23,231 bases of DNA from IMG/VR virus record IMGVR_UViG_3300010155_000101, positions 1-23,231 of that record; one strand, given 5' to 3'. Source of the stretch: a virus. Position 1 is the first letter of the stretch. Every line of letters begins with the position of its first letter. The translations under genes were made by a program, and so were the position numbers. Positions 4,111 to 18,565 of the stretch are shown here, in pieces. A model generated the notes under the pieces. The model had not been told where the DNA came from. It saw only the letters and a list, made by a program, of their open reading frames with translations, and ran no database searches.

Positions 4111-7100
4111 ATGCCTAGAATAAATGAGATAGTGTTTGATGACCAAACCTTCCTAAAGGAAACAAATCTACCACCCTCTCTCCCAGAGCCAGAGCAACCT
4201 ATTGGCGATGGGGAATCAGAGGATATACAACCAGGGCAAATATATGATCAAATACCTGTAGACACAGAGGGTGTATCTGATATGTTACCTTTCGATCCTG
4301 AAGGCCTTGGGTATGACTATAATACCGCTACCCAGGTAGGAGGTATGCAGGACAGCAATGGACACTGGGCCAGCCGAGATCCCAATACTGGCATGATCTT
4401 AAAGGGCATGCAACATCCCACCATAGATAAAACAATCCAAGATGAAGAATTTATCGGAAATATCGTATCCAAGGGGGAAGATGGCCGTTATTACTCTAAC
4501 CCACCTCGCAAAGAAGATCTGGATACCACAATAGTTGATACTGGCATTAAAAATTACCTGGGCCACAATATTAAAGTTGCAAAGGATGTAGTAGAACCCC
4601 TGGCAAGGGTTACGGAAGAATTAAACATTGCAGGGATTAGCCTTCAGTTGGCAGATACTTATAGGTCGCAAGATGTTCAGGCCCAGATGTACCAGGCATC
4701 AAAAGGAACCCCAAAAGAGGGCCTTGTTGCCCCGCCAGGCAAGTCGGATCATGAACACGGCCTTGCTATAGACCTTGCCCAGATTGACACAATGAAAAAT
4801 GACCAGGTATTTGACACCTTGAAGAAACATGGATTTCATCCTATAGCTGATGAATGGTGGCATTGGTACTACGGCCCAGAGGATCCAAAGGCTATGATGC
4901 CACGCTCGGAACGTGCGAAAACCCAATCAGATCCACTTGTTAAACAACAATGGATGAGAAAAAAGATGGAATTAGCAAGAGGTAAGGTAGACAGGTTCCC
5001 GTTAGATGCCGAGAAACTGCTTAATGCTGAGATCGAAGCACCAGGATCTACTGAGGAAGTGTTTGATGAAATAACTAACACATATATAGGTATAGACCAG
5101 CCAAGTGGCCAGATTATTGATCCAGCGCAAGAAGAATTAGAATTAAATGTGAAAGATATTATTCGAGAGCAGAATTATAAGAATTATTTAATTAGCCAGG
5201 GCAAATATAAAGAGGCATTCGCTCAAGATACAGAAAACTTAGCACTTGCAGAAAAGTATCAGGACGGAGATTGGAAGCAGGGAATAATTGGCAATATGTT
5301 CTATAAGTTCGCAGATGCAGTGTCTGCTGGTACAAGTAAAGGTATATTAACCAAACCAGCATATACACAGCTTATGGAAAATTATAGGCGTGATGTTGGG
5401 TACTCAGAAGAAGATTTGATGGGAAAGATATGGCGTACCGCTTATGCTGCTGGTGAAGGGACTGGTCATGCTATAGGATACATGGGGCCTTCAAAGCTAT
5501 TTGGTTATACAAGATGGAATAAATGGATAAAGTCAGCACTGACCTTTGGTAGTGTTGGTGGAGTAAGGCGCGCAGGAGATCCAGAAGAACTGGAGCATAT
5601 GTCCCTTCGGAAATGGGTTATTGGCACGGGCCTGGATGCCACGCTAGGGGCATTCTTCCCCTTTCTTGGCAGTGCTGGGGGCAGTGTAGTCGCAGAACCA
5701 AGCACAACGATGGCATTAGCTAAATTCATGCTGCAGACTGGTGCTATAACTGGCGGTATGACTGTAACACAGCTAGCGGAAATGTTTAACGCTGAAATGG
5801 AGGATAATCCTGATCAGCCTGCCATGGAATCATTTGTGAAAGCATGGGATCAAGTTACGGATCCAGAAACTCTGATCAAGTCATTATCTATGATGGCGTT
5901 TCTACATGGTACCTCAACAGGGCAAAGGTTTATGAAGGATGGAAAAGTTAATGCCCAGCAACATGCCAACCTTGTAAAACAGGCGCAATTATATTTTAAA
6001 GATATGCCATTTAATTTAAAGAAAAGACCAACCACTCCTGAACAGGCTAAAGAATACTTTGAAGCCTGGGATAACTGGGCATTAAGTGAGGGCAACAGGG
6101 CTGAATATTTTAGGCAGACAACATTAAAAGATCAGAGAAAAGAGCGTAGTAATCAGATTAGCAAGAATGAACCTAGATTAGACTGGAAAAGGGATTTAGC
6201 CAGATGGCAGAATGAACAGATCCGTGTAAGGAAAAAGGATCAACGGACTGTGATTGAAGAAGAAGGCGTGGAAGAAGGGGTAACTAAGGAGAATATGGTA
6301 AGGCCAAAGGAACCCGTAGAATACGATCTGCGAAAGGAAAATCCCGAACTTATGAAAGAGGTCAATATTAAGGATATTAATGATCTGTTGAAGCAGGGTT
6401 ATACGGAGATGCAGATTGGCCAGATGACCAAAAATGAGATATATCAACGGCTCTCTAAATCAAAAAAGACTAAAGAAGTAGTCAAAGAGAAAAAAGATAT
6501 TAAAGTTGAAGAGAAGGTGAAAGTTGAAGAGAAGGAAAAGCCTACTGAGGATATATCAGAACATACACAGAGGGGATTAGACCAGGCAAAGATACAGAAT
6601 TTAAAACAACTCGGAGATAATATAAAAGCTGGGAAATATAAGGAAAATACTCCTCTATATCAAGAAATATATAATAAAAGATTAGCAAAAGAAACTACTG
6701 GGATGTCAGGGATCCAGGCAGAAGAGAAGGTAAAACCTGTTAAAGTAGAACCAAAGAAGGAACCTGTAAAAACAGATAAAGTTGATACAGGATTAGCAGA
6801 TAACGCTATAACCGAACTTGCAGATGGTCTAAAGTCAGGAATTGACAGCAAGATAAATCACTATACAAAAAGTTTAAAAGATAATATAAAGACATATGGC
6901 GAGCCAGTTAGGGAAATGATTAGAAATTCTGATTTGCCAGAAGATGTTAAAACCAAGTTATTAGGTAAAGAAAAGCCTGTGGTTAAAGAAGAATCTACCA
7001 AATTAACAGAAGAGCAGGAGAATGTGGTTGAGAAGGCTAAATTAGTTAACAAAGCGGAACCTGGCACACAAATAGATCAAATGGCTCAAGATCAGTTAAA

Positions 7101-10100
7101 GCATACTGATGTAGTTTCTACTTTTAAAGCCTTAAATATACCAGTAGAGAACTTGAGTGGGAAGACGAAGGCGGATTACTTTAATGCAATAATTAAGCAT
7201 GTTAAGGATGCTAAAGAAACAAAGACAAAACCAACAGAAGGCTATGCACCTCTTGCAGGTGAATCTGTTACCACGAAGAATGTCTTTAGGGGTAAGCATA
7301 AAACAATTACTGTCAATCCAGAAGATCTAACTATTAACCATCGCGATACCAAAGCGTCCGCCTCCTGGCTTGGCCAAATGCAGGAAAAGGGTTATGTGGA
7401 GCAAGTAGAGGTCAAGGAAGGGTTTCGTGCAAGATACAAGCTAACAGAGGCAGGAGAGAAGGTTTACAAACAAGGCCAGGCAAATGTTAAGGCAATGTTA
7501 GAAGGCGTGCCTGCGGATAAATATGAGCCTAAAAAGATTAACAAGAAACCAACTAATGATAAGGTAGATGATGTTGGTACAATATATACAGGCAAAATTG
7601 ATGGCCAACCAGCCTGGAGTGAGGGCCATATGATACTTCTTGGTAAGCCAGGAAAGGGTGATTTAGTATCTACAAACAAGCCAAATCTTCAAAATGTTGT
7701 GGCTAATAAGAAGGGCGATGTTGCGGAAACTGATTTGCGGTTAATTGGAGCTACCCAGGCCGAACCAGGCTTGGCAAGACATGTATGGCTATCAGATGGC
7801 AAAACTTTACATGAACTAAATGCCGATTACTTTGATTATATAAATTCAGTAGTAGAAAACCCAACATACAGAGCCTCTACTGGTTCAAAGGCTGAATTGA
7901 AAGCGGTACATATATATGAAAACGGCAAGTGGAAGGGTATGTTGATGCCTGTTAGGTATACTGACATACCTTCTAATATATCAAAGTTGTCTGGGATGAC
8001 TGAGAGTGGGCCGAAGTCTACAAGTGGAGAATCCATGAGGGCATATGGTGGCGGATCTACTACAGGTGAATCCACATCATCTGTTAAAGACAATTTTAAA
8101 ACTGCTGACTTGGATAATCCTATAACAAAGAGAAAAATCGGTGAAGAGCTTGCCAGGGATCTCGATCAGGAGCCAGGCAAGGGGACACGCTTTGGCCTAA
8201 TTGAGCGGTGGAAAAAGAGGTCAAGAGTACTTGGAATATTCTGGCCCCATAGCACGATCATAAGAGTGAGGAATATATCTGATGTTAAGGTCCTGTCACA
8301 TGAGCTGGGACATAAGCTGGATGATGTTGTATTTGGTTTCTCTGATAAGATGAAATACGACAAGCTGGATAAGGCTGATATTAAAGTTACTATGGCTAAT
8401 GGCTTGAAGGATGTGAAAAAGCGTGAACATAGGCTGAACCAACTCCGTAGTGAATATGGCGAAGAAACTGTTAAAAACTTGTTGGATAGAGCAGAACTAC
8501 GCGCAGAGTTAAAGAAATTCCTTGTTGATAGAGGATACCCAGAGGTTAATACTGCTGAAGGAATAGCGGAGATGATTAGCGATTACGTTGTTTCACCAAC
8601 AGGACTGGCTGAAAAGTTACCAAAATTTCATAAATTATTTGAAGAAACTATTGGGACTACCCCGAAGATTAAAGATGCACTACTGCATGCCAGGAAGCAG
8701 TGGGAAGAGTGGCATGCGCAGGATCCTAGGGTAAAGACAGAGTCTACCATCGCCAGGGAGAAAAATACATTCATGAATGGTATTTTAAGGAAGACGGAAG
8801 GCGCGAAGGAGAAATTATATTACAATATATTAGATAATACAGCATTGTATAAGAAAATTGAAAAAGAACTGACCAAAAAAACAGGGAAAATAAGCGGTGA
8901 AAACTCCCCTTATCGTAGGTTCCTGTCGATGCTGGGCATTGAAGGTAAGGCAGAGCAATTTTTACACAATGCCCCATTTATGATAAAAGGTGAGAATATT
9001 AAGCTAAGAAAGGATGTAAAACCTTTCTTAAAGATCATTAAGCCATATGTAGTAAATGGTGAATTAAAGGTGCTTGAGGGATATATTACTGCCAAGCGGA
9101 ATGTATCACTATATGAAGCATCCAAGAAAACTAAGGACCCTAGGTATAAGGGATCAATGACTACATCCATAGATCTTGCCAGGAAAACAATGGAAGGCCA
9201 TAGAAAGAATCGTCCTGATCTGGATCAGGCTGCCAAAGAGATACATAAGTATAATGATGCCCTGCTTGATTATTATGTGGACTCTGGTATGTTAAGCAAT
9301 AGCGATGCAACTTTGTTCAGGTCATATCATGATTTCTACATACCATTTAGAAGGTATTTTGCCCAGTATGAATATCAAAATGCATTCCAGGGGAAATTTG
9401 ATATGGGCAAGTTTATGAAAGAGCATGCGACTCCAAAGGTTAAGGCCATACAGAAAGGGGAGAAATTTAGGGAAATAATACCTCCAGTTGAGCAGGAGCT
9501 AAAGCAAACATATGATTTAATCCGTGCTTCAGATATGAATCGAACAAAACTAACAGTAATAGATGCATTGCAAGCTATAGATAAGCAATTGGTTCAGCTT
9601 ATACCAAAGAGCGTGATTAAAGGAGTTCCTGATTTTGACGGCATCGTACACTACAGTCGAAAAACAGAAAAGCCTGGTGGAGCTATATTGACTGTAAGGC
9701 GAAATGGGGAAATAGAATTTTATGAGGTGCCAAAAGAATATCATGAGAATCTAATGGCGGTTAATGCAGATGTACACGCGGCAATTAAAGTGTTAGCGTT
9801 ACCTTCCAGAATATTAAGGAAGGGCGCAGTAGATTATAACCCAGTGTTTGGGATTAGAAATATTTTTAGGGACCAGGGGTCTGCTATAATGTATTCCAGA
9901 CATGGGTATGCTCCGTGGGATTTTCTAAAAGGATTTAAAAGTCTTGTTACTAATGATGTATGGCACCAGAAGTTCCTGGCCAGCGGAGCCTCGCAATCAT
10001 TTCTTGTTGGCATGGACAAACACTTGCAATTTAGTAAGAAAAAAGGAATGTATACTAATGTTGGTGATATGACCTTGAAAGGAAAAATAAAGAAGTATGC

Positions 10101-11598
10101 AAACCCATTTAACATAGTAAAGGATATGAATCAGGCTACAGAGATGGGGACAAGAATAGGCGCGTTCCAGAAGGCTTATCGCAAGACAGGTGGGGATGTG
10201 TGGCAGGCCATGGAAGAGGCCAGACATGTATCTGCCGACTATGGTGTCAAGGGGGCAATGATGCAGCCAGTAGGTGCGCTATATCCATTCCTTAATGCAA
10301 GGATGGCCCATTTTCGTAACTTTGGAGAGGCCGTGAAGAACAGGCCTGGAAAAGTGCTGTTAAGGGGTCTTATGTTTAGTACAGCTCCTGCTGTAGCGAA
10401 CTGGTTTTGGAATAATAGGAATGAAGAAAGTAGACAGCTCTACCAGGAACTGCCAACATGGAGAAGAAATTCGTTTTATAATATGCAATTAGGAGATTCT
10501 AAATATCATTTTATGGTTCCAAAAGGCCCATTCGGGTATGCATTTGGTACAGGAGTTGAAACATTTCTGGATTGGATGTATGATAGCGAACCTGCTTCCC
10601 TTCTTGAATTTGCCCATGGGATGGTAAAAGAAACTTCCCCCATTGGAGGTGGTGGCGGTATGACTGAACTATTACCACAATTCGGAAGACCTATACACGA
10701 ATATTTAGCCAATAAGGATGCTTTTACAGGAAGACCTATTGTTCCTAAAAATCTAGAAGGCGGTTCAAAATTTATGCAGTATGATGAAACAACCAATCAG
10801 CTAATGGTCAAGATCGGTGAGAAATTGGATATATCACCGAAATTATGGCAACATGTGATTGAATCATCTACTGCTGGTACTGGTAAAACCGTCTTGAGCA
10901 TTACAGATGACCTGGCTGAGTTGATGGGCATTGTTGACAAAAGGCCTGAAAAGTGGAAAGATCTACTGGAATACCCAATGTCCAGGGCGTTCATGGCACG
11001 GCCATATATTGGATCCAGGGGTGAAAGTATGCAAAAAGTATGGGAAACCCTTGATGAAATAGAAAAAGTTAATACTGATTATGGCTTATTTATGGAAAGA
11101 GAATTTCAAGAGAGTGATCCTGATAAGAAATTGAAGATTAAGGCAGACTATGCAGAATACGATGAAGAAAATAAAGACACATATAATTGGTTTATACAGC
11201 AACTACCAGAGGCTGGCGGATCTACAAATGGTCAGCAAATGCACAAGTTTATGGAGGTAGTTAAATACTTGAGGATAGCAAATGAGAGATTATTAGAGGG
11301 TAAAATATCAACTACGATTAAAGGTGAAAAAATGCTTCGGGACATGTCTGATTCAGAGGTAAATTCTCTTACAGAAGAATATAAGTTATTAACGCCTACA
11401 CATTTGGTTAATCAAAATCATATGTATATCACGGAACAGGCGCGCATTCTTCTTGAGAAGTTTGAAAATAAGGAGCCTTTTATATTAAGCAAGGAACTGA
11501 ATAATTATCATTTAGGCCAGAGCATTAAACAGGATATGCAGTTGAGCTTGATTAAAAAAGGGTTTAAAAAACAAAGACAAATGGAACTAAATAAGTAA
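4111..11598 (+). CDS. Giant polyvalent virion protein: M15 peptidase, zincin and LPD38-like domains
   Basis: A 2495-residue multidomain protein. (1) Residues ~140-260 are an M15/VanY-type peptidase: SDHEHGLAID at 212-221 gives the SxHxxGxAxD zinc signature (H214, D221), and DEWWHW at 247-252 supplies the catalytic Glu248 and third ligand His251; it should cleave peptidoglycan peptides. (2) Residues ~440-560 contain Gly/Ala-rich hydrophobic stretches. (3) ~700-1040 is Lys/Glu-rich linker. (4) ~1053-1120 resembles a winged helix (LTEAGEKVYKQG). (5) HELGH at 1397-1401 with AEGIAEM around 1482-1488 looks like a second, gluzincin-type metallopeptidase. (6) NPVFGIRNIFRD at 1910-1921 matches the LPD38 region of phage polyvalent proteins. 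Such proteins are packaged and injected with the DNA. The start has only a weak ribosome site and lies 2 bases after the previous stop, so coupling is likely. Domain calls are by eye. Confidence 0.85.
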   Translation: MPRINEIVFDDQTFLKETNLPPSLPEPEQPIGDGESEDIQPGQIYDQIPVDTEGVSDMLPFDPEGLGYDYNTATQVGGMQDSNGHWASRDPNTGMILKGMQHPTIDKTIQDEEFIGNIVSKGEDGRYYSNPPRKEDLDTTIVDTGIKNYLGHNIKVAKDVVEPLARVTEELNIAGISLQLADTYRSQDVQAQMYQASKGTPKEGLVAPPGKSDHEHGLAIDLAQIDTMKNDQVFDTLKKHGFHPIADEWWHWYYGPEDPKAMMPRSERAKTQSDPLVKQQWMRKKMELARGKVDRFPLDAEKLLNAEIEAPGSTEEVFDEITNTYIGIDQPSGQIIDPAQEELELNVKDIIREQNYKNYLISQGKYKEAFAQDTENLALAEKYQDGDWKQGIIGNMFYKFADAVSAGTSKGILTKPAYTQLMENYRRDVGYSEEDLMGKIWRTAYAAGEGTGHAIGYMGPSKLFGYTRWNKWIKSALTFGSVGGVRRAGDPEELEHMSLRKWVIGTGLDATLGAFFPFLGSAGGSVVAEPSTTMALAKFMLQTGAITGGMTVTQLAEMFNAEMEDNPDQPAMESFVKAWDQVTDPETLIKSLSMMAFLHGTSTGQRFMKDGKVNAQQHANLVKQAQLYFKDMPFNLKKRPTTPEQAKEYFEAWDNWALSEGNRAEYFRQTTLKDQRKERSNQISKNEPRLDWKRDLARWQNEQIRVRKKDQRTVIEEEGVEEGVTKENMVRPKEPVEYDLRKENPELMKEVNIKDINDLLKQGYTEMQIGQMTKNEIYQRLSKSKKTKEVVKEKKDIKVEEKVKVEEKEKPTEDISEHTQRGLDQAKIQNLKQLGDNIKAGKYKENTPLYQEIYNKRLAKETTGMSGIQAEEKVKPVKVEPKKEPVKTDKVDTGLADNAITELADGLKSGIDSKINHYTKSLKDNIKTYGEPVREMIRNSDLPEDVKTKLLGKEKPVVKEESTKLTEEQENVVEKAKLVNKAEPGTQIDQMAQDQLKHTDVVSTFKALNIPVENLSGKTKADYFNAIIKHVKDAKETKTKPTEGYAPLAGESVTTKNVFRGKHKTITVNPEDLTINHRDTKASASWLGQMQEKGYVEQVEVKEGFRARYKLTEAGEKVYKQGQANVKAMLEGVPADKYEPKKINKKPTNDKVDDVGTIYTGKIDGQPAWSEGHMILLGKPGKGDLVSTNKPNLQNVVANKKGDVAETDLRLIGATQAEPGLARHVWLSDGKTLHELNADYFDYINSVVENPTYRASTGSKAELKAVHIYENGKWKGMLMPVRYTDIPSNISKLSGMTESGPKSTSGESMRAYGGGSTTGESTSSVKDNFKTADLDNPITKRKIGEELARDLDQEPGKGTRFGLIERWKKRSRVLGIFWPHSTIIRVRNISDVKVLSHELGHKLDDVVFGFSDKMKYDKLDKADIKVTMANGLKDVKKREHRLNQLRSEYGEETVKNLLDRAELRAELKKFLVDRGYPEVNTAEGIAEMISDYVVSPTGLAEKLPKFHKLFEETIGTTPKIKDALLHARKQWEEWHAQDPRVKTESTIAREKNTFMNGILRKTEGAKEKLYYNILDNTALYKKIEKELTKKTGKISGENSPYRRFLSMLGIEGKAEQFLHNAPFMIKGENIKLRKDVKPFLKIIKPYVVNGELKVLEGYITAKRNVSLYEASKKTKDPRYKGSMTTSIDLARKTMEGHRKNRPDLDQAAKEIHKYNDALLDYYVDSGMLSNSDATLFRSYHDFYIPFRRYFAQYEYQNAFQGKFDMGKFMKEHATPKVKAIQKGEKFREIIPPVEQELKQTYDLIRASDMNRTKLTVIDALQAIDKQLVQLIPKSVIKGVPDFDGIVHYSRKTEKPGGAILTVRRNGEIEFYEVPKEYHENLMAVNADVHAAIKVLALPSRILRKGAVDYNPVFGIRNIFRDQGSAIMYSRHGYAPWDFLKGFKSLVTNDVWHQKFLASGASQSFLVGMDKHLQFSKKKGMYTNVGDMTLKGKIKKYANPFNIVKDMNQATEMGTRIGAFQKAYRKTGGDVWQAMEEARHVSADYGVKGAMMQPVGALYPFLNARMAHFRNFGEAVKNRPGKVLLRGLMFSTAPAVANWFWNNRNEESRQLYQELPTWRRNSFYNMQLGDSKYHFMVPKGPFGYAFGTGVETFLDWMYDSEPASLLEFAHGMVKETSPIGGGGGMTELLPQFGRPIHEYLANKDAFTGRPIVPKNLEGGSKFMQYDETTNQLMVKIGEKLDISPKLWQHVIESSTAGTGKTVLSITDDLAELMGIVDKRPEKWKDLLEYPMSRAFMARPYIGSRGESMQKVWETLDEIEKVNTDYGLFMEREFQESDPDKKLKIKADYAEYDEENKDTYNWFIQQLPEAGGSTNGQQMHKFMEVVKYLRIANERLLEGKISTTIKGEKMLRDMSDSEVNSLTEEYKLLTPTHLVNQNHMYITEQARILLEKFENKEPFILSKELNNYHLGQSIKQDMQLSLIKKGFKKQRQMELNK

Positions 11599-12719: not shown

Positions 12720-12902
12720 ATGCACACACTTCTTACTCCTAAAGAGGTGTCTTCTATTTTAAAAATATCCTACCGAAAAGTATTAGATCTTATCAATAAT
12801 GATGAACTTATTGCTTCTGTCATTGCGGGAAAATTTCGTGTTAAACAAAGTGATTTGGAAGGCTATATAGATGATAACGAAAGAACAATTAAAGGCTCGT
12901 AA
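12720..12902 (+). CDS. HTH_17/excisionase-family DNA-binding protein
   Basis: A 60-residue protein made of one MerR/excisionase-type helix-turn-helix: LLTPKEVSSILKISYRKVLD, then a short wing (IAGKFRVKQSDLEGYID). These small proteins bind and bend DNA as excisionases or local regulators. I chose the ATG at 12720 because AGGA lies 9 bases before it and the promoter above it would start RNA close to 12691. The in-frame ATG at 12690 (70 residues) has no ribosome site. The gene overlaps the YqaJ nuclease by 32 bases, so the two are co-expressed. Without an integrase in view, a regulatory role is at least as likely as true excision. Confidence 0.75.
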   Translation: MHTLLTPKEVSSILKISYRKVLDLINNDELIASVIAGKFRVKQSDLEGYIDDNERTIKGS

Positions 12903-13821
12903 AGAGTATATAGGCGGAAGCGATGCGCATCACATATTAGGCATAAAGCCGTATGGGTGCATGCGGTATCTATGGTATGACAAGACCGATCAGATCCCTG
13001 ACTATGATGTGTTTAATGATGATCTGTTGAAAAGGGGAAATAAATTAGAAAAATTAATTCTAGAGGAGTATAAGGAACGTACAGGATATAATGTCCGCCA
13101 GGTATATCGTTCAATAAAATCAAAGGAGTTTTCTTGGGCGATGGTCCACTTGGATGGGGAGATCGTAGGTCATAAGAATGGCCCAGGTGTACTTGAATGT
13201 AAGTCCGTAGGAAGGCATATATATTGGAGAGTGCTGGAGGAAGGTATTCCAAGTTATTGGATAGCACAGATCCAATATGCTATGTTCGTTACAGGAAGGG
13301 AATGGGCAAGTGTTGCCTTCCTATGGGCCGACGAATGGAAGTTTAAAACATTCGACATAGGTCGTGATCAGGGGTTTGTGGATATGCTTATAGAGGCGGG
13401 AGAAAATTTCTGGCGGAAGGTGGAGAATGGCCCTGCCCCAGATCGTCTGGATCCAAAGGATAAGCGATGCTCTAAATGTGCTTTTAGAACTACATGCCAA
13501 GGAGAGCATCTGTTGACAAGCCACAAAGATATAGGGGAAGAAATACCTTTTGATGCATCCTTGGATATGGATATAATGGAATTAAAAGAATTGGAAGGCA
13601 TATTAAGTGATGCCAAAGAATCAGTTGATGCTAAAAAAGAAAAGATAAAAGAATTAGTAGGCGCAAGGCCGATTGTAGATTGCACAGGCTATAGAATACA
13701 TTATAAGGTCGTGGAATCAAATCGTCTTAATAGCACTAAGTTAAAAAAGGACCGCCCTGACATATATAAAGAGTATGTCACCAAGAGCGTGTCCAGGCCG
13801 TTTAAAACAATAGCGAAATAG
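12871..13821 (+). CDS. YqaJ-family viral recombinase / exonuclease with Fe-S-type cysteines
   Basis: A 316-residue PD-(D/E)xK nuclease of the lambda-exonuclease/YqaJ group, which resects double-stranded DNA ends to give a 3' strand for the annealase next door. Landmarks are IGGSDAHHILG (14-24), RGNKLE (55-60), HLDGEI with Asp95, LECKS with Glu109 and Lys111, and IAQIQYAM (131-138), the usual YqaJ pattern. In addition Cys30 (YGCMRYLW) and C200-x2-C203-x5-C209 give the four-cysteine layout seen in Cas4/AddB-type nucleases that hold a [4Fe-4S] cluster. Residues ~230-316 are a helical C-terminal extension. GGAAGG lies 8 bases before the ATG, inside the HTH gene. Bet follows after 8 bases. Confidence 0.9.
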   Translation: MITKEQLKARKEYIGGSDAHHILGIKPYGCMRYLWYDKTDQIPDYDVFNDDLLKRGNKLEKLILEEYKERTGYNVRQVYRSIKSKEFSWAMVHLDGEIVGHKNGPGVLECKSVGRHIYWRVLEEGIPSYWIAQIQYAMFVTGREWASVAFLWADEWKFKTFDIGRDQGFVDMLIEAGENFWRKVENGPAPDRLDPKDKRCSKCAFRTTCQGEHLLTSHKDIGEEIPFDASLDMDIMELKELEGILSDAKESVDAKKEKIKELVGARPIVDCTGYRIHYKVVESNRLNSTKLKKDRPDIYKEYVTKSVSRPFKTIAK

Positions 13822-13829
13822 GAGTTAAA

Positions 13830-14756
13830 ATGGAAAAAACAACAGGGGGCCAGGAGTCCATTAGTATTACGGATTACCAAGGACCATCAAAACCCACAAG
13901 GGTTATAGATAATATCAATGAGGTTAAGGCATATACAAAGGACCAAATTGATTTAATTAAGAAGACAGTTGCCGTTGGGGCCACTGATGATGAACTGAAA
14001 ATGTTTATAGCAGTATGTCAGAAGGCGGGTCTGGATCCGTTTGCAAGGCAAGTTCACTTTATTAAAAGGGGTGGGAAGGCAACCATCCAAACAGGCATCG
14101 ATGGGTTTCGTGCTATAGCTGAAAGAACAGGTCAGTATGCAGGCAATGATGAATACCTCTATAATGGCAACCTTACTGAGTATGAATGCCTTAAAGATGG
14201 TCTTAAAACCCCTACTACTGCAAAGGCTGTGGTCCGCAAGATTGTGCAGGGTTCTGCATGTGAGTTCTCTGCCGTGGCATCATGGATAGAATATTGTCCA
14301 CAGGGCGGTGAGGCCTTTATGTGGAAAAAGATGCCCTATCTCATGCTTGGCAAGTGTGCAGAGGCTCTGGCACTTCGTAAGGCCTTTCCTAATGATATGT
14401 CAGGGTTGTATACCAACGATGAAATGGATCAGGCAGATCGTCCAGATGTAAAGAAGCTCTCGGAAAAAAAGAGTGCCACCATCATAGAGGAAGTGAAGAA
14501 AAGCAAGGTAAAGGAAAAACCAAAGAAGGTGCCTGAGAAGGATGAAACTACAGGGTTGCTGAAAACTATTGATAAATTATTAAAGAATGTTGACCTGGAT
14601 CAGGATAAAAAGGAAAAGACAGGGGAATGGCTTGAAAAATGTACCCCTACTTCCGATGTATTATCAAAAACAATTACGAAAATGGAGAAGAATATTGAAG
14701 AAAACCACACCAAAAGAACCGAAAAGGAAGGAGAGGATGACGATTTACCGTTTTAA
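13830..14756 (+). CDS. bet: Phage recombination protein Bet (RecT-family single-strand annealing protein)
   Basis: A 308-residue annealase with an AGGAG site 6 bases before its ATG. The Bet/RecT core spans ~35-205: DQIDLIKKTVAVGATDDELK, FIAVCQKAGLDPFARQVHFI, ATIQTGIDGFRAIAERTGQY, and later MLGKCAEALALRKAFPNDMSG and GLYTNDEMDQ. It anneals complementary single strands generated by the adjacent YqaJ exonuclease. Residues ~210-295 are a Lys/Glu-rich linker, and the protein ends in GEDDDLPF, which closely resembles the C-terminal tip of bacterial SSB (DDDIPF). The gene pair exonuclease-Bet is the classic SynExo module. The last 20 bases overlap a possible 30-codon ORF that leads into the replication gene. 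Confidence 0.92.
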   Translation: MEKTTGGQESISITDYQGPSKPTRVIDNINEVKAYTKDQIDLIKKTVAVGATDDELKMFIAVCQKAGLDPFARQVHFIKRGGKATIQTGIDGFRAIAERTGQYAGNDEYLYNGNLTEYECLKDGLKTPTTAKAVVRKIVQGSACEFSAVASWIEYCPQGGEAFMWKKMPYLMLGKCAEALALRKAFPNDMSGLYTNDEMDQADRPDVKKLSEKKSATIIEEVKKSKVKEKPKKVPEKDETTGLLKTIDKLLKNVDLDQDKKEKTGEWLEKCTPTSDVLSKTITKMEKNIEENHTKRTEKEGEDDDLPF

Positions 14757-14829
14757 TATACCATGGCTTGGTGCAAAGTGGAGATTATATGCCTCACTCT
14801 CTGTTCCTTATTATGTATGGTTTGAATGA
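14737..14829 (+). CDS. Possible 30-codon leader/coupling ORF
   Basis: A short ORF starts inside the end of bet, with a strong GGAAGGAG site 3-5 bases before the ATG, and ends at a TGA that overlaps the ATG of the replication gene (ATGA at 14826-14829). The product is aromatic and basic (begins MTIYRFNIPWLGAKWRLY; ends YYVWFE). The replication gene has no convincing ribosome site of its own, so this ORF could carry ribosomes across the 69-base gap after bet. The same frame is open further upstream, but only this ATG has a ribosome site. It may be a real microprotein or just a coupling device. Confidence 0.4.
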   Translation: MTIYRFNIPWLGAKWRLYASLSVPYYVWFE

Positions 14830-15692
14830 GATATAACGAAGTATCCATAAAGTTGTGGCTGTCTTCTGATTTCAGACAACTTACCACAAAAGGTCAGATG
14901 TTCTGGTTATATCTGATTACAGGCCCAAGGCGTAAGCAGGCCCCTGGGATCTATCGTGCAGGGTATGGTGCATGTTCAGATGATCTTGGTTGGCAAATGA
15001 AAGATATTAAGGCATCATTCAAAGAACTTATTGATGCTGAGATGATGCAATGGGATCCCGATAACAATGTTATATACCTACCTAATTGGCCTAAATACAA
15101 CAGACCCCCCGCAAATCCTAATGTTTTAAAGGCATGGCTGAACATTCTTGATGGAATACCAGATTGTGACTTAAAAACTAAATATATCGAGATATTGCGT
15201 GATGTTATAGAAACGGCCGAGAATCATTCTGCATCGCTAGATGTATACTCACTATGGGTAGAAACACTAAAGCCTGTTAAACGGCCTGTTAAACGGCCAA
15301 AAAAGGCTCCTGTTAAGGTATCTGATGAATTAATGAACGTATCTAAGTCTTATCATGACAAAGTTAAGCATGAATTTCCAAATTTGAGCATATTTAAAAA
15401 TGGTGGCATGTCCACTATAGTAAAAATGGGAGCGGTAGAACTTGAGAAACTTATCAATAAGGATAATCATGCGCTTGAAGAAGTAACTGCTGTATTGGAT
15501 TGGGTAATATCATCGTATGATGAAAGACAAGAATTTAATTGGCTGCCGAATTGCCAATCCCTGCGGTCCATCCGCAAGAAGTCCAAGAATGGTAATCCAA
15601 AGTATGATAATATAAGTAATGATTATATGGTGAATAAGTCCAAAGTAAAAGCAAAGGAAATAGATTATAGCAATGACGAACAACCCTTCTGA
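14826..15692 (+). CDS. Phage replication initiator (winged-helix N-terminus, DnaD/O-like)
   Basis: A 288-residue protein. Residues 1-85 match the N-terminal winged helix of phage replisome organisers: KLWLSSDFRQLTTKGQMFWL, GIYRAGYGACSDDLGW, FKELIDAEMMQWDPDNNVIY, then LPNWPKYNRPPANPNVLKAW. A Pro/Lys/Arg linker (PVKRPVKRPKKAPVK, 150-164) separates it from a C-terminal helical part (~170-260) that is likely to contact the helicase machinery. It is followed immediately by a helicase-loader-like gene (20-base overlap), as in many phages. The DNA of the linker carries iteron-like repeats that could be the origin. The C terminus reads NDEQPF, another SSB-tip-like ending. The family role is inferred from architecture and context; the start is set by the ATGA overlap at 14826. 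Confidence 0.75.
   Translation: MRYNEVSIKLWLSSDFRQLTTKGQMFWLYLITGPRRKQAPGIYRAGYGACSDDLGWQMKDIKASFKELIDAEMMQWDPDNNVIYLPNWPKYNRPPANPNVLKAWLNILDGIPDCDLKTKYIEILRDVIETAENHSASLDVYSLWVETLKPVKRPVKRPKKAPVKVSDELMNVSKSYHDKVKHEFPNLSIFKNGGMSTIVKMGAVELEKLINKDNHALEEVTAVLDWVISSYDERQEFNWLPNCQSLRSIRKKSKNGNPKYDNISNDYMVNKSKVKAKEIDYSNDEQPF
15273..15296 (+). repeat. Iteron-like tandem 12-mers inside the initiator gene
   Basis: CCTGTTAAACGG occurs twice in tandem (15273-15284, 15285-15296), followed by CC and a diverged copy CCTGTTAAGG at 15308-15317. Each junction creates GGCC-TGTTAAAC-GGCC, an imperfect palindrome around TTAA. Lambda's origin lies at the equivalent place, between the two domains of gene O. The simpler explanation is a duplicated Pro-Val-Lys-Arg linker. 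Confidence 0.45.
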
Positions 15693-16209
15693 AGAATATT
15701 TAAAGAAGATTCAAGCGGATTTCGTAGATAAGCTGAATAACTATATGAATGTCCGTGTCAAGATGGAGCCTATCCAGATAAAAGCCTGGACATGCGCTCT
15801 GGCAAACCATAGATATGAGGATATAAAGGCTATATGGAAGGATTTCATGCTAGAGGTACAGCCTGGGTATTTGCCACCTATTAAGTCGGTCATGGACATG
15901 ATACTGCGTAATGATGTAAGGCAGAGGGAGATATTCTCTAATAAAAAGAGAGTGATTGAGGAAAGACAACTAGAAACCAGGCCAGAGGAGTTCTCCAGGT
16001 TTATAAAAGAATTGCAAATATCATTGACCAAGCTAAAGGCGGGCGAATATAATATGGGAAATCATTATAATCACATGGCCGATACCATGGACGGCCTGGA
16101 CATAAAGGATGGTGCCAGGGAACATCGTTCATTAGCAAAGAAATGGATAGCAGAGAATCCAGAAACTATTGAAAAAGAGGCATATAGTGACGATGTATGC
16201 CCTATATAA
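15673..16209 (+). CDS. Helicase loader-like replication protein (G39P-type)
   Basis: A 178-residue protein overlapping the initiator by 20 bases. The region around residues 30-78 (KAWTCALANHRYEDIKAIWK, then QPGYLPPIKSVMDMI) has the 'W-x-x-x-L-x-x-x-x-Y-x-x-I... PP-x-x-x-x-x-x-x-I' layout of G39P-like helicase loader/inhibitors of phage SPP1 and relatives: a small helical N-terminal domain followed by a flexible charged region. There is no Walker ATPase motif, so it is not a DnaC-type loader. The C-terminal half (~115-178) is helical and charged. The gene after the initiator is the usual place for a loader. The assignment is by pattern and context, and moderately secure. Confidence 0.6.
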   Translation: MTNNPSEEYLKKIQADFVDKLNNYMNVRVKMEPIQIKAWTCALANHRYEDIKAIWKDFMLEVQPGYLPPIKSVMDMILRNDVRQREIFSNKKRVIEERQLETRPEEFSRFIKELQISLTKLKAGEYNMGNHYNHMADTMDGLDIKDGAREHRSLAKKWIAENPETIEKEAYSDDVCPI

Positions 16210-16211
16210 AT

Positions 16212-16283
16212 GGGCAATCTTTCTAACCTCATCAATGGATGAGGCATTGGTTACTCGTAATCTTCGCTTAGTAAAGGTTGCCC
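16212..16283 (+). ncRNA. Predicted three-way-junction RNA/DNA element
   Basis: The 82-base gap between the loader and the next gene folds almost entirely. An 11-bp closing helix pairs 16212-16222 (GGGCAATCTTT) with 16273-16283 (AAAGGTTGCCC; one G-U). Hairpin 1 is CCTCATC-AATG-GATGAGG (16227-16244, 7 perfect bp). Hairpin 2 is GGTTA-CTCG-TAATC (16249-16262, 5 bp, one G-U). The closing helix starts 3 bases after the previous stop and ends 8 bases before the next ATG, which has no Shine-Dalgarno. It could be a cis-regulatory RNA, a small RNA, a processing site or a folded single-strand origin. I recognise no family, and it is not a tRNA. Confidence 0.5.
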
Positions 16284-16291
16284 ACTAAATT

Positions 16292-16597
16292 ATGTTAAAA
16301 GAGATAGAGCAAAATGTTATTGGAATATTAACTGAAATCTCACGCACAAGGGACGATGACAATTTACTGATAGCTGAATATTGGCGCAGGCAGTTAGGTG
16401 GATCTGATATCACCAGACATCTGCCTGCCGATGCTCTACTTGAAGAATTTACCAATAAACGCCTCACACGGCCTGACACCATTACCAGGTGTAGGCGCAA
16501 GATACAGGAATACAATCCACATCTCCGTGGGACACAATATGAAAAGAGGCATAATAAGACAGCATCCTATAAAAAAGAAATAAAGGAGTGGTATTGA
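16292..16597 (+). CDS. Conserved-looking small phage protein of the replication region
   Basis: A 101-residue basic, helical protein. The sequence ISRTRDDDNLLIAEYWRRQL followed by LTRPDTITRCRRKIQEYNPHLRG is a pattern seen in short phage proteins of unknown function near replication and resolvase genes ('S-R-x-R-D-D-D-x-x-L-I-x-x-Y/V-W ... P-x-S/T-I-x-R-x-R-R-x-x-Q'). The basic C-terminal half (KRHNKTASYKKEIKEWY) suggests nucleic-acid binding. There is no ribosome site before the ATG; it lies 8 bases after the closing stem of the three-way-junction element, so translation may depend on that structure. Its stop overlaps a TTG-started microprotein (TTGA). Confidence 0.65.
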   Translation: MLKEIEQNVIGILTEISRTRDDDNLLIAEYWRRQLGGSDITRHLPADALLEEFTNKRLTRPDTITRCRRKIQEYNPHLRGTQYEKRHNKTASYKKEIKEWY

Positions 16598-16713
16598 GAT
16601 CACTACATGAATCAATGGTTGAAAAAGGTATAAGAAATAAGTTAAATTTATTAGTAATGTTATGGATCTTAGATAAGTTGGTCATGTGTTTATTGTTTTG
16701 GGCATTTAGATGA
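16594..16713 (+). CDS. 39-residue putative membrane microprotein (TTG start)
   Basis: A short ORF begins at TTG (TTGA overlap with the previous stop), 5 bases after a strong AAGGAG. It has a polar N terminus (RSLHESMVEKGIRNKLN) and an apolar C-terminal half (LLVMLWILDKLVMCLLFWAF) interrupted by Asp-Lys, consistent with a membrane-associated peptide. Its stop overlaps the next ATG (ATGA). An alternative internal ATG is at codon 8. The well-placed ribosome site and double coupling make it likely to be real. No family recognised. Confidence 0.5.
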   Translation: MRSLHESMVEKGIRNKLNLLVMLWILDKLVMCLLFWAFR

Positions 16714-16802
16714 TATGGGTGGCCTTTATATGCGGGTGCTGGATTGGTGTGTTCGTTGGAATACTTGCAGTATCACTTATGCAGGCCAATAGGAAACGAT
16801 AA
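16710..16802 (+). CDS. 30-residue single-pass membrane microprotein, DUF3789-like
   Basis: A 30-codon ORF coupled by ATGA to the preceding microprotein. The product is one transmembrane helix (MIWVAFICGCWIGVFVGILA and a few more apolar residues) followed by a basic end (NRKR), so the C terminus should face the cytoplasm. The pattern F-x-x-G-x-x-I/V-G-V-F-x-x plus an R/K tail resembles DUF3789-type phage microproteins, whose function is unknown. It is too short for most gene finders. It might act in membrane anchoring, superinfection exclusion or lysis timing; none is shown by the sequence. Confidence 0.6.
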   Translation: MIWVAFICGCWIGVFVGILAVSLMQANRKR

Positions 16803-16834
16803 AAAATCTCCTGTTTCGTGGGGGAAAAAGAATT

Positions 16835-17010
16835 GAGCAGGTTTATATCTATTCTGGCGCAAGCGGATGTTAAATACATATTGAACGCCCAGACATAGGG
16901 ATCCGCAAAATCTCAATATAACCTGCTCTCAAATTGGGTGATATAAGAGGCCCAATGAAGTCGGACTGATCTGATAGGGGGGGTGCCTTAATATTCTCGG
17001 CATTCCCCCT
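16835..17010 (+). ncRNA. Predicted structured RNA with pseudoknot (non-coding gap 16803-17055)
   Basis: The 253-base gap has no convincing gene but strong pairing. A 13-bp helix with one bulged T pairs 16835-16848 (GAGCAGGTTTATAT) with 16916-16928 (ATATAACCTGCTC). Inside, 16853-16859 (TCTGGCG) pairs with 16886-16893 (CGCCCAGA, one bulge) and 16863-16868 (GCGGAT) pairs with 16901-16906 (ATCCGC); these two interleave as an H-type pseudoknot. Next come ATTGGG/CCCAAT (16933-16938 with 16951-16956) and a 12-bp hairpin (16976-16987 with 16999-17010, two G-U pairs, 11-base loop). The last hairpin has no U-tract, so it is not a classic terminator. This may be a free RNA or the 5' leader of the gene at 17056. 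No known family recognised. Confidence 0.5.
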
Positions 17011-17055
17011 TGAAACCGATTAAATATCCAACTTAATACAAAGGAGAGATTATAA

Positions 17056-17250
17056 ATGTCATACGAACATAAACCAGGTACAGGAACAGTATTCCCAAAT
17101 GATTATAAGGAAAAAGGAGATAAGAAACCAGACTTTACAGGAAAGATGAATGTTAATGGCGAGATCCTTGAAGTGGGTATATGGAATAGTACAACGACTG
17201 ATGGAAAAGATTATTTGTTTATAAAAGCATCTGAGCCTTTTAATAAATAA
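17056..17250 (+). CDS. Small DUF736-like phage protein
   Basis: A 64-residue protein with AAAGGAG 9 bases before its ATG. The layout 'YEHKPGTGTVFPNDYKEKGD-K-x-P-D-F-x-G-x-x-x-V-N-G-E-x-x-x-V-x-x-W' followed by a final beta strand (YLFIKASEP) resembles short phage and plasmid proteins related to DUF736, predicted to be all-beta and sometimes considered possible single-strand-DNA-binding or replication accessory proteins. It follows the structured RNA region and overlaps the next gene by one base (TAATG). The family match is by pattern only. Confidence 0.65.
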   Translation: MSYEHKPGTGTVFPNDYKEKGDKKPDFTGKMNVNGEILEVGIWNSTTTDGKDYLFIKASEPFNK

Positions 17251-17750
17251 TGGCAAGAGATGTATTAGGCTATGCAAAAGACAAAGTGGTAGAGCATAAA
17301 AATGTTAGCGGTGGATTTGAAGGCAGTGAAGAGTCTACATTTATGCGAGTCTTTACCCATGATTCAGTGGATGCATGCATTACTATTGTTGAAGATTCAT
17401 ATAATGGATCCCCCAGGATTCAGGAATTTACAGGGGCATCCATGACTACCCAGGAGAAGGAAGATACAGGGGTTGATCAAATAGCACCAGGTTTATTGGT
17501 AGCAAGGTTTAGGGTTGGATCTACTGTTGTGCATGAGGGGGGTGATTTGGGTAATACTGTATTTATTGATGGGAAGGTATATTGGTTTCCCTGCGAAAGT
17601 CCAAATGGATTGGATTTCTATAATTTTCAGAACTTGTTGGAAAGAAAAATGGCAGTAGATTATATAGAATATGCCTCAAATTCAACAGCGGGTGAGATAG
17701 AATCAGCAAATGACGATTTGCAGGCTTGGATGGATAACATAGTAACATAA
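17250..17750 (+). CDS. Hypothetical protein between DUF736-like gene and RusA
   Basis: A 166-residue acidic protein joined to its neighbours by TAATG overlaps on both sides, so the three genes form one translational unit. It looks mostly beta-stranded to about residue 125 (FMRVFTHDSVDACITIVED; LLVARFRVGSTVVHEGGDLG; TVFIDGKVYWFPC) with a helical, acidic C-terminal end (AGEIESANDDLQAWMDNIV). I see no catalytic motif. Being between a possible ssDNA-binding protein and a Holliday junction resolvase suggests a role in DNA metabolism, but I do not recognise it. Confidence 0.6.
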   Translation: MARDVLGYAKDKVVEHKNVSGGFEGSEESTFMRVFTHDSVDACITIVEDSYNGSPRIQEFTGASMTTQEKEDTGVDQIAPGLLVARFRVGSTVVHEGGDLGNTVFIDGKVYWFPCESPNGLDFYNFQNLLERKMAVDYIEYASNSTAGEIESANDDLQAWMDNIVT

Positions 17751-18175
17751 TGATAATTGAGTTTTATGTGCCTGGGATCCCCAAGGCTTTGCAGAGGCAT
17801 CGCCATACCAGGACAGGCCTGACCTACGACCCTTCCAGAAACGATAAGCAGGATTTTATATTACAATGCCGTAGGTATAAGCCGCGCATACCACTTTATG
17901 GACCATTAGAATTAACCCTTAAATTTATTCTTCCTAGACCAAAGCACCATTTCCGCACAGGTAAGTTCTCTGATCAGCTTAAACCAAAGAGTCCCACCAG
18001 AGTAACAGGCCGTCCCGATTTGAGTAATCTTATCAAATTTGTTGAAGACTCATTTAATGGGGAGTTCTATAGGGATGATGCGGAGATATGCGTTCTATCG
18101 GCCTCTAAGGTCTATTGTGAGCCAAGCAAGTATCCCCGCACTGAGGTAATATTAACTACTCTGAATAAAGATTAG
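17750..18175 (+). CDS. rusA: RusA-family Holliday junction resolvase
   Basis: A 141-residue endonuclease that cuts four-way DNA junctions symmetrically. Family landmarks: the N-terminal strand EFYVPGIPKALQRHRHT (P-G-x-P-K then R-x-R), the basic strand LKFILPRPKHH, and the active-site block GRPDLSNLIKFVEDSFNG followed by YRDDAEI. Acidic residues visible are D90, E99, D100, D109 and D110. The second Asp of the E. coli D-x-D pair is Ser92 here (D-L-S-N), a change I also associate with other phage RusA proteins. Expected roles are debranching replication and recombination intermediates before packaging, in line with the Bet/YqaJ pair upstream. Its last 24 bases overlap the end of the opposing leftward gene. 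Confidence 0.88.
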   Translation: MIIEFYVPGIPKALQRHRHTRTGLTYDPSRNDKQDFILQCRRYKPRIPLYGPLELTLKFILPRPKHHFRTGKFSDQLKPKSPTRVTGRPDLSNLIKFVEDSFNGEFYRDDAEICVLSASKVYCEPSKYPRTEVILTTLNKD

Positions 18176-18565
18176 TTTTAGTTCATCCCAGGTGTATTTC
18201 ATATTGTTTAAGAGTTCCCTGGCAATGAATAGATCGAATGAGTGGGTCTTCCTCATCTTTGTAAGGAGATTCTTGATGCTTAAATCTTTGTACATTCCAC
18301 TTGATTCATCATAGTAGTCAGCAATTGAGGCCTCCCAATTACGTCTGGATGCAAGTTGTTTAGGTTCGATCTTCTTCCCTTGGTCCACATGGTATAGGAA
18401 ATCAATTTCTACTAGGCTGAAGATTCCCTGCATGTTCCTTACTGCATCATCGCGGAGTGATGGGATCCCCTCAAGTATTGATCTGGTCCCTGTGAATAGA
18501 TTTTTGAAGTTGGCTGCATAGTAGCTGATCGTGTCAATTGTTATGCTTGTTGATATTGTCTTCAT
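18152..18565 (-). CDS. Hypothetical helical protein, convergent with rusA
   Basis: A 137-residue protein read leftward, with AAAGGGGA just before the ATG. It looks largely helical (ISYYAANFKNLFTGTRSILE; MQGIFSLVEIDFLYHVDQGK; IKNLLTKMRKTHSFDLFIAR) with moderate charge and no Cys clusters, nucleotide-binding loop or membrane helix. It has its own promoter (18679-18707) and a terminator-like leader (18600-18660), separate from the methyltransferase operon upstream. It is therefore an individually regulated gene, perhaps early. The 3' end overlaps rusA by 24 bases in convergent orientation, so the two transcripts are complementary there. No family recognised. Confidence 0.65.
   Translation of the reverse strand: MKTISTSITIDTISYYAANFKNLFTGTRSILEGIPSLRDDAVRNMQGIFSLVEIDFLYHVDQGKKIEPKQLASRRNWEASIADYYDESSGMYKDLSIKNLLTKMRKTHSFDLFIARELLNNMKYTWDELKLIFIQSS

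Follow-up and report, generated by a model that had tools for sequence, protein, structure and literature searches.

A conserved intergenic structured element of an uncultured phage and its probable role in local control or processing of the replication mRNA

Background

Phage intercistronic RNase III sites, such as the R sites of T7, are structured RNAs of less than 100 nt located between the genes of a polycistronic mRNA. In phages T4 and RB69 the operator of gene 32 consists of a pseudoknot and, after it, an unstructured segment with UUAAA/UAAA elements that is similar in length to a leader in the locus described here (PMC535899). T4-type phages are also known to carry promoter/stem-loop cassettes (PeSLs), which are mobile, according to work cited in PMC4503421.

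The window, which is the whole stretch of DNA analysed, is a 23,231-base virus record from an uncultured phage. A structured RNA had been predicted in a gap of its replication/recombination operon, at 16803-17055, and was borne out as an element that has no Rfam match and shows double compensatory changes in its sole homologue. This element, designated IR2 (16835-16928), probably serves the replication mRNA as a signal for local control or for processing. An upstream gap of the same operon contains another folded element, designated IR1.

Sequence data and homologue searches

Homologues were sought in IMG/VR using the SSB-like, p166, p101, RecT and exonuclease proteins, and in GTDB genomes using the exonuclease, and further searches covered phages by DNA and protein and plasmids by DNA. 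IR2 and IR1 were each also sought as a DNA pattern. The RecT search recovered IMGVR_UViG_3300023192_001221 (5,855 bases; hereafter L003), which has the same gene order as the window and proteins that are 59-80 % identical to those of the window (RecT, 67 %). These protein, DNA and pattern searches gave no third homologue, and the elements were held by L003 only; for the IR1 pattern, L003 was the sole convincing match among the matches listed, and a match in L109 was rejected as it sits in a coding gene. A scan of IMG/VR with TTGAGCNGG-N28-58-GGATCCGCAA returned 24 contigs, among which L003 alone has, like the window, a closing helix that is 9 bp or longer. The sequence of L002, whose RecT is identical, ends before IR1 and IR2, and in L004, as in exonuclease relatives further removed, this interval is occupied by other genes. 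The case for conservation of IR2 is a comparison of two sequences, the window and L003.

Gene organization

The rightward block around IR2 encodes an HTH/excisionase-like protein, an exonuclease, RecT, a loader, p178, p101, two ORFs, an SSB-like protein, p166 and RusA (Table 1). The gene downstream of IR2 had been described as DUF736-like, a label that was withdrawn, as a Pfam search with a cut-off as loose as E 5 gave nothing for this gene and PHROGs assigns it to single-strand DNA binding protein. The gap had also been called gene-free; on its upstream side this does not wholly apply, as 16592-16802 is occupied by two small ORFs.

Several other features of these sequences were recorded. A sigma-70-like promoter close to the consensus (TTGACC-18-TATAAT, 11/12) is located at 16024-16053, within p178 and upstream of IR1. 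The exonuclease gene contains a very strong inverted repeat at 13203-13328 (GTCCGTAGGAAGGCATATAT / GTGTTGCCTTCCTATGGGC), which is kept in L003 and was read as a coding coincidence because it is lost in the other exonuclease homologues. Positions 4111-11598 of the window encode a protein of 2495 aa that weakly resembles tail tape-measure and giant phage protein families. In L052, a 69-bp element at 9451-9519 with a 14-bp closing helix (z -6.39) precedes a small membrane-protein gene.

Table 1 Genes and structured features of the locus (window coordinates)
Feature	Position	Strand or direction	Remarks
YqaJ exonuclease	12871-13821	rightward	
RecT	13830-14756	rightward	
DnaD-like loader	14826-15692	rightward	
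p178	15673-16209	rightward	
IR1	16211-16284	+	Closing helix UGGGCAAUCUUU...; hairpins CCUCAUC-AAUG-GAUGAGG and GGUUA-CUCG-UAAUC; z -5.58, 0/200 shuffles
p101, conserved phage protein, 3' of IR1	16292-16597	+	77 % identity in L003, 40 % in L004
Two small overlapping ORFs	16592-16802		~39 and ~30 codons
IR2 core	16835-16928	+	Closing helix and two inner hairpins (three-way junction); fold z -3.47; homologue L003:4563-4659
IR2 closing helix, 5' strand	16835-16848	+	GAGCAGGTT(T)ATAT, U16844 bulged; 13 pairs
IR2 inner hairpin 1	16849-16898	+	CUAUUCUGGCG / CGCCCAGACAUAG, 11 bp with bulges; MFE structure
Proposed pseudoknot, 5' strand	16863-16868	+	GCGGAU; partner 16901-16906 (ATCCGC in DNA)
IR2 inner hairpin 2	16898-16914	+	GGGAU-CCGCAAA-AUCUC; GGATCCGCAAA common with L003
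IR2 closing helix, 3' strand	16916-16928	+	ATATAACCTGCTC; pairs with 16835-16848
7-bp hairpin	16933-16956	+	AUUGGGU / GCCCAAU; MFE; absent from the original prediction
6-bp hairpin	16960-16975	+	GUCGGA / UCUGAU; MFE
12-bp hairpin	16976-17010	+	AGGGGGGGUGCC / GGCAUUCCCCCU; pair probabilities 0.8-0.99
SSB-like gene, downstream of IR2	17056-17250	+	PHROG 18154, E 3.2e-7
RusA	17750-18175	rightward	

Folding and conservation of IR2

The predicted 13-bp closing helix was present, with pair probabilities in a 400-nt context of mostly 0.94-1.0 for the outer pairs and 0.4 beside the bulge, and it encloses an inner 11-bp helix whose strands lie at 16849-16859 and 16886-16898. Checked against shuffled sequences of the same composition, 16803-17055 folded at -76.9 kcal/mol, compared with -60.2 ± 4.9 for the shuffles (z -3.40), and was lower than all 200 of them; the core region at 16830-16935 gave a z of -3.54. 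Among 100-nt segments of the + strand throughout the window, a z of -3.1 is reached by about 1 %, many of them within coding DNA, and about 2.9 helices of the strength of the closing helix (score 28) are expected per shuffled 23-kb sequence. Taken alone, the energy of IR2 is only moderately unusual. The view that such an amount of pairing would be unlikely by chance was borne out mainly by conservation in L003, more than by energy or helix score, and the pseudoknot was near chance.

The L003 counterpart of IR2 is a 97-nt element at 4563-4659 in the same p101-to-SSB interval, with a 13-pair closing helix and a fold z of -3.53. Its closing-helix pair probabilities are 0.87-1.0, and the helix has a high pairing probability in a 300-400 nt context in both copies. 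Comparison of the 13 window pairs with L003 revealed five double changes, no one-sided changes, seven invariant pairs and one broken pair, and the one-base bulge is at the identical position in the two helices. When the partner strand was slid along as a control, the double changes fell to 0-1. Neutral divergence that keeps at least 12 of the 13 pairs with at least five double changes had a p of ~1e-6 to 6e-5 according to how much divergence was assumed, to be read as an order of magnitude only, since the simulation was a simple one with independent change and takes no account of the search by which L003 was found. Both copies of the element contain GGATCCGCAAA, each time as a hairpin with the loop CCGCAA(A), at an offset that differs between the two elements; the L003 form of hairpin 2 is UAUGGAU-CCGCAA-AUCCAUA. 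No clear counterpart of inner hairpin 1 was found in L003. It is highly likely that a conserved structured element exists at this position.

Downstream of the core, the expected 6-bp and 12-bp hairpins were both found, the former with G-U pairs, together with the 7-bp hairpin; none of the three has a counterpart in L003. An alternative long-range helix, GTTTCGTGGGGGAA / TTCCCCCTTGAAAC (16813-16826 / 17003-17016), would compete with the 12-bp hairpin, and was set aside with a pair probability of ~0 in context and no L003 counterpart.

Tests against known RNA types

The original prediction centred on an H-type pseudoknot. Both of its interleaved strands are present in the window, but the 5' strand, GCGG, is absent from L003:4563-4659, where the other strand is taken up by a hairpin, and when the inner 67 nt were shuffled, interleaved Watson-Crick helices of at least 5 bp occurred in 12.6 % of cases. 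The pseudoknot was therefore rejected and, though the more striking reading, should not be carried forward.

Rfam 15 gave no match at the gathering score anywhere in the window, including its twister, pistol, HDV and other ribozyme and riboswitch models, and no match up to E 10 at 16590-17260; sub-threshold chance matches occurred elsewhere only. Every Rfam ribozyme model was negative and there was no sign of a self-cleaving type; the known ribozyme and riboswitch families were rejected on the Rfam result. A hammerhead-like core seen by eye at ~16966-17016 (CUGAU...GAAA) was discarded, as the following GA is missing and there are two stems only. No tRNA or tmRNA was found. The search for intrinsic terminators gave no + strand match in 15600-18300, and a terminator was rejected for lack of a U-tract after the stem; the 12-bp hairpin, although stable, likewise has no U-tract and is not terminator-like.

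IR1, the second element

IR1 occupies the p178/p101 gap, starting 1 nt past the p178 stop and ending 7 nt before the p101 ATG, and is stronger than IR2 by fold z. Its homologue in L003 (4052-4136) lies in the same gap with the same closing helix (z -2.33), and CUCGUAAU is common to the two copies. The first hairpin, CCUCAUC/GAUGAGG, is CCUCUUU/AAAGGGG in L003, a difference of two double changes and one one-sided change, counted by eye. Neither the window nor L003 has a Shine-Dalgarno sequence in the stretch from IR1 to the p101 ATG. This absence and the 1-nt and 7-nt spacing suggest that folding of IR1 may place the p178 stop beside the p101 start. IR1 and IR2 occupy spacers between genes of this one operon in the window and in L003 alike.

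Interpretation

Because two conserved folded domains lie between genes of one operon, cis-acting mRNA elements are the simplest reading, and RNA is favoured over a DNA cruciform because IR1 and hairpin 2 of IR2 contain G-U pairs. The probability that 16835-16928 is a conserved cis-acting RNA element between cistrons of the rightward replication/recombination mRNA is put at about 0.5, and the odds that it is one of two such intercistronic elements, with IR1 as the other, are likewise about even. After transcription, IR1 and IR2 would each fold into a compact closed domain between a stop codon and the next start region, and these domains would set how strongly the genes on either side are expressed relative to each other. 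They could do so as a boundary of processing or stability, through cleavage of the RNase III type or by stopping exonucleases, or by drawing stop and start together for reinitiation, the route to which IR1 points. A structured duplex does lie between cistrons, in the same interval in L003, and the gene order suggests a shared transcript; RNase III-type action, however, needs long duplexes, which are clear in the window copy only. Control in cis that is specific to one gene is weakened because the gene adjoining IR2 is SSB-like in the window and a small unrelated ORF in L003, and the difference between the two IR2 interiors also counts against a cis-acting element. It is distinctly unlikely that IR1 and IR2 are founders of a class of intercistronic RNA domains not yet described in phages, in which the spacer would be folded away with the stop beside the start, so that translation would be coupled, or a replication signal sensed, across the recombination operon.

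The differing IR2 interior also bears on the possibility, doubtful but of some weight, that the fold is partly a chance one, with selection on the closing helix only, so that the interior pairing, the pseudoknot and the hairpins further downstream would be incidental. The downstream hairpins without counterpart and the number of score-28 helices expected by chance agree with this, as does the score-37 helix in the exonuclease gene, which is not kept in wider homologues, whereas the CCGCAA(A)-loop hairpin common to both copies and the high stability of the 12-bp hairpin do not. It is quite improbable that IR2 lets the SSB-like protein repress its own translation in the manner of T4 gene 32. Here the protein would bind the folded RNA, spread along the AU-rich leader and block the ribosome site, and the window does have a structured block, a ~45-nt AU-rich leader with UUAAA/UAAA elements, an AAGGAG Shine-Dalgarno sequence and the SSB-like ATG, although the Shine-Dalgarno region is predicted to be partly paired. 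The pseudoknot is not conserved, and L003 does not have structured RNA directly 5' of its SSB-like gene: about 700 nt and four ORFs lie between, another ORF directly precedes that gene, and the ORF adjoining the element (4685-4828) is not detectably SSB-like, a weak likeness seen by eye having been lost on testing. A leader of the downstream gene, as suggested earlier, is likewise not a conserved arrangement in view of L003.

An element acting at the DNA level, whether a cruciform, origin or binding-site palindrome or a small mobile palindromic cassette, is unlikely. The palindromic ~70-bp element of L052 is missing at the same junction in L037, L043, L046 and L047, so that cassettes of this sort may be gained and lost among these phages, and the PeSLs offer a precedent. 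Against this are the G-U pairs in hairpins, the conserved bulge, the lack of second copies in the window, and maintenance through compensatory change where a mobile relic would decay. Least probable among these readings is a new RNA family, be it an independent small RNA acting in trans, a leader that senses a ligand, or a ribozyme. The lack of any Rfam match would suit it, and the conserved loop CCGCAA(A) might serve for contacts; however, no good promoter-like site was found near upstream of IR2, the best one lying upstream of IR1, no intrinsic terminator follows IR2, and the window and L003 copies have no conserved complex core in common.

As cis-acting intercistronic RNAs, IR1 and IR2 would be candidates for post-transcriptional control of recombination/replication genes in phages without a cultured relative, and the compensatory changes point to an uncultured phage lineage that keeps two specific folded RNAs within its replication operon.

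Comparison with known systems

Like the T7 R sites, IR1 and IR2 are structured, shorter than 100 nt and located between genes of what appears from gene order to be a polycistronic phage mRNA; they differ in being three-way junction or single-domain folds and in coming from an unrelated phage. The window shares with the T4/RB69 gene 32 operator a folded RNA and an AU-rich unstructured leader before an SSB-type gene (PMC535899), but neither the pseudoknot nor the position relative to the SSB gene is conserved here. IR1 and IR2 are also intergenic stem-loops scattered among small phage genes, as are the PeSLs in the account cited in PMC4503421; unlike PeSLs as described there, they have no attached promoter or repeated copies and are conserved by compensatory change.
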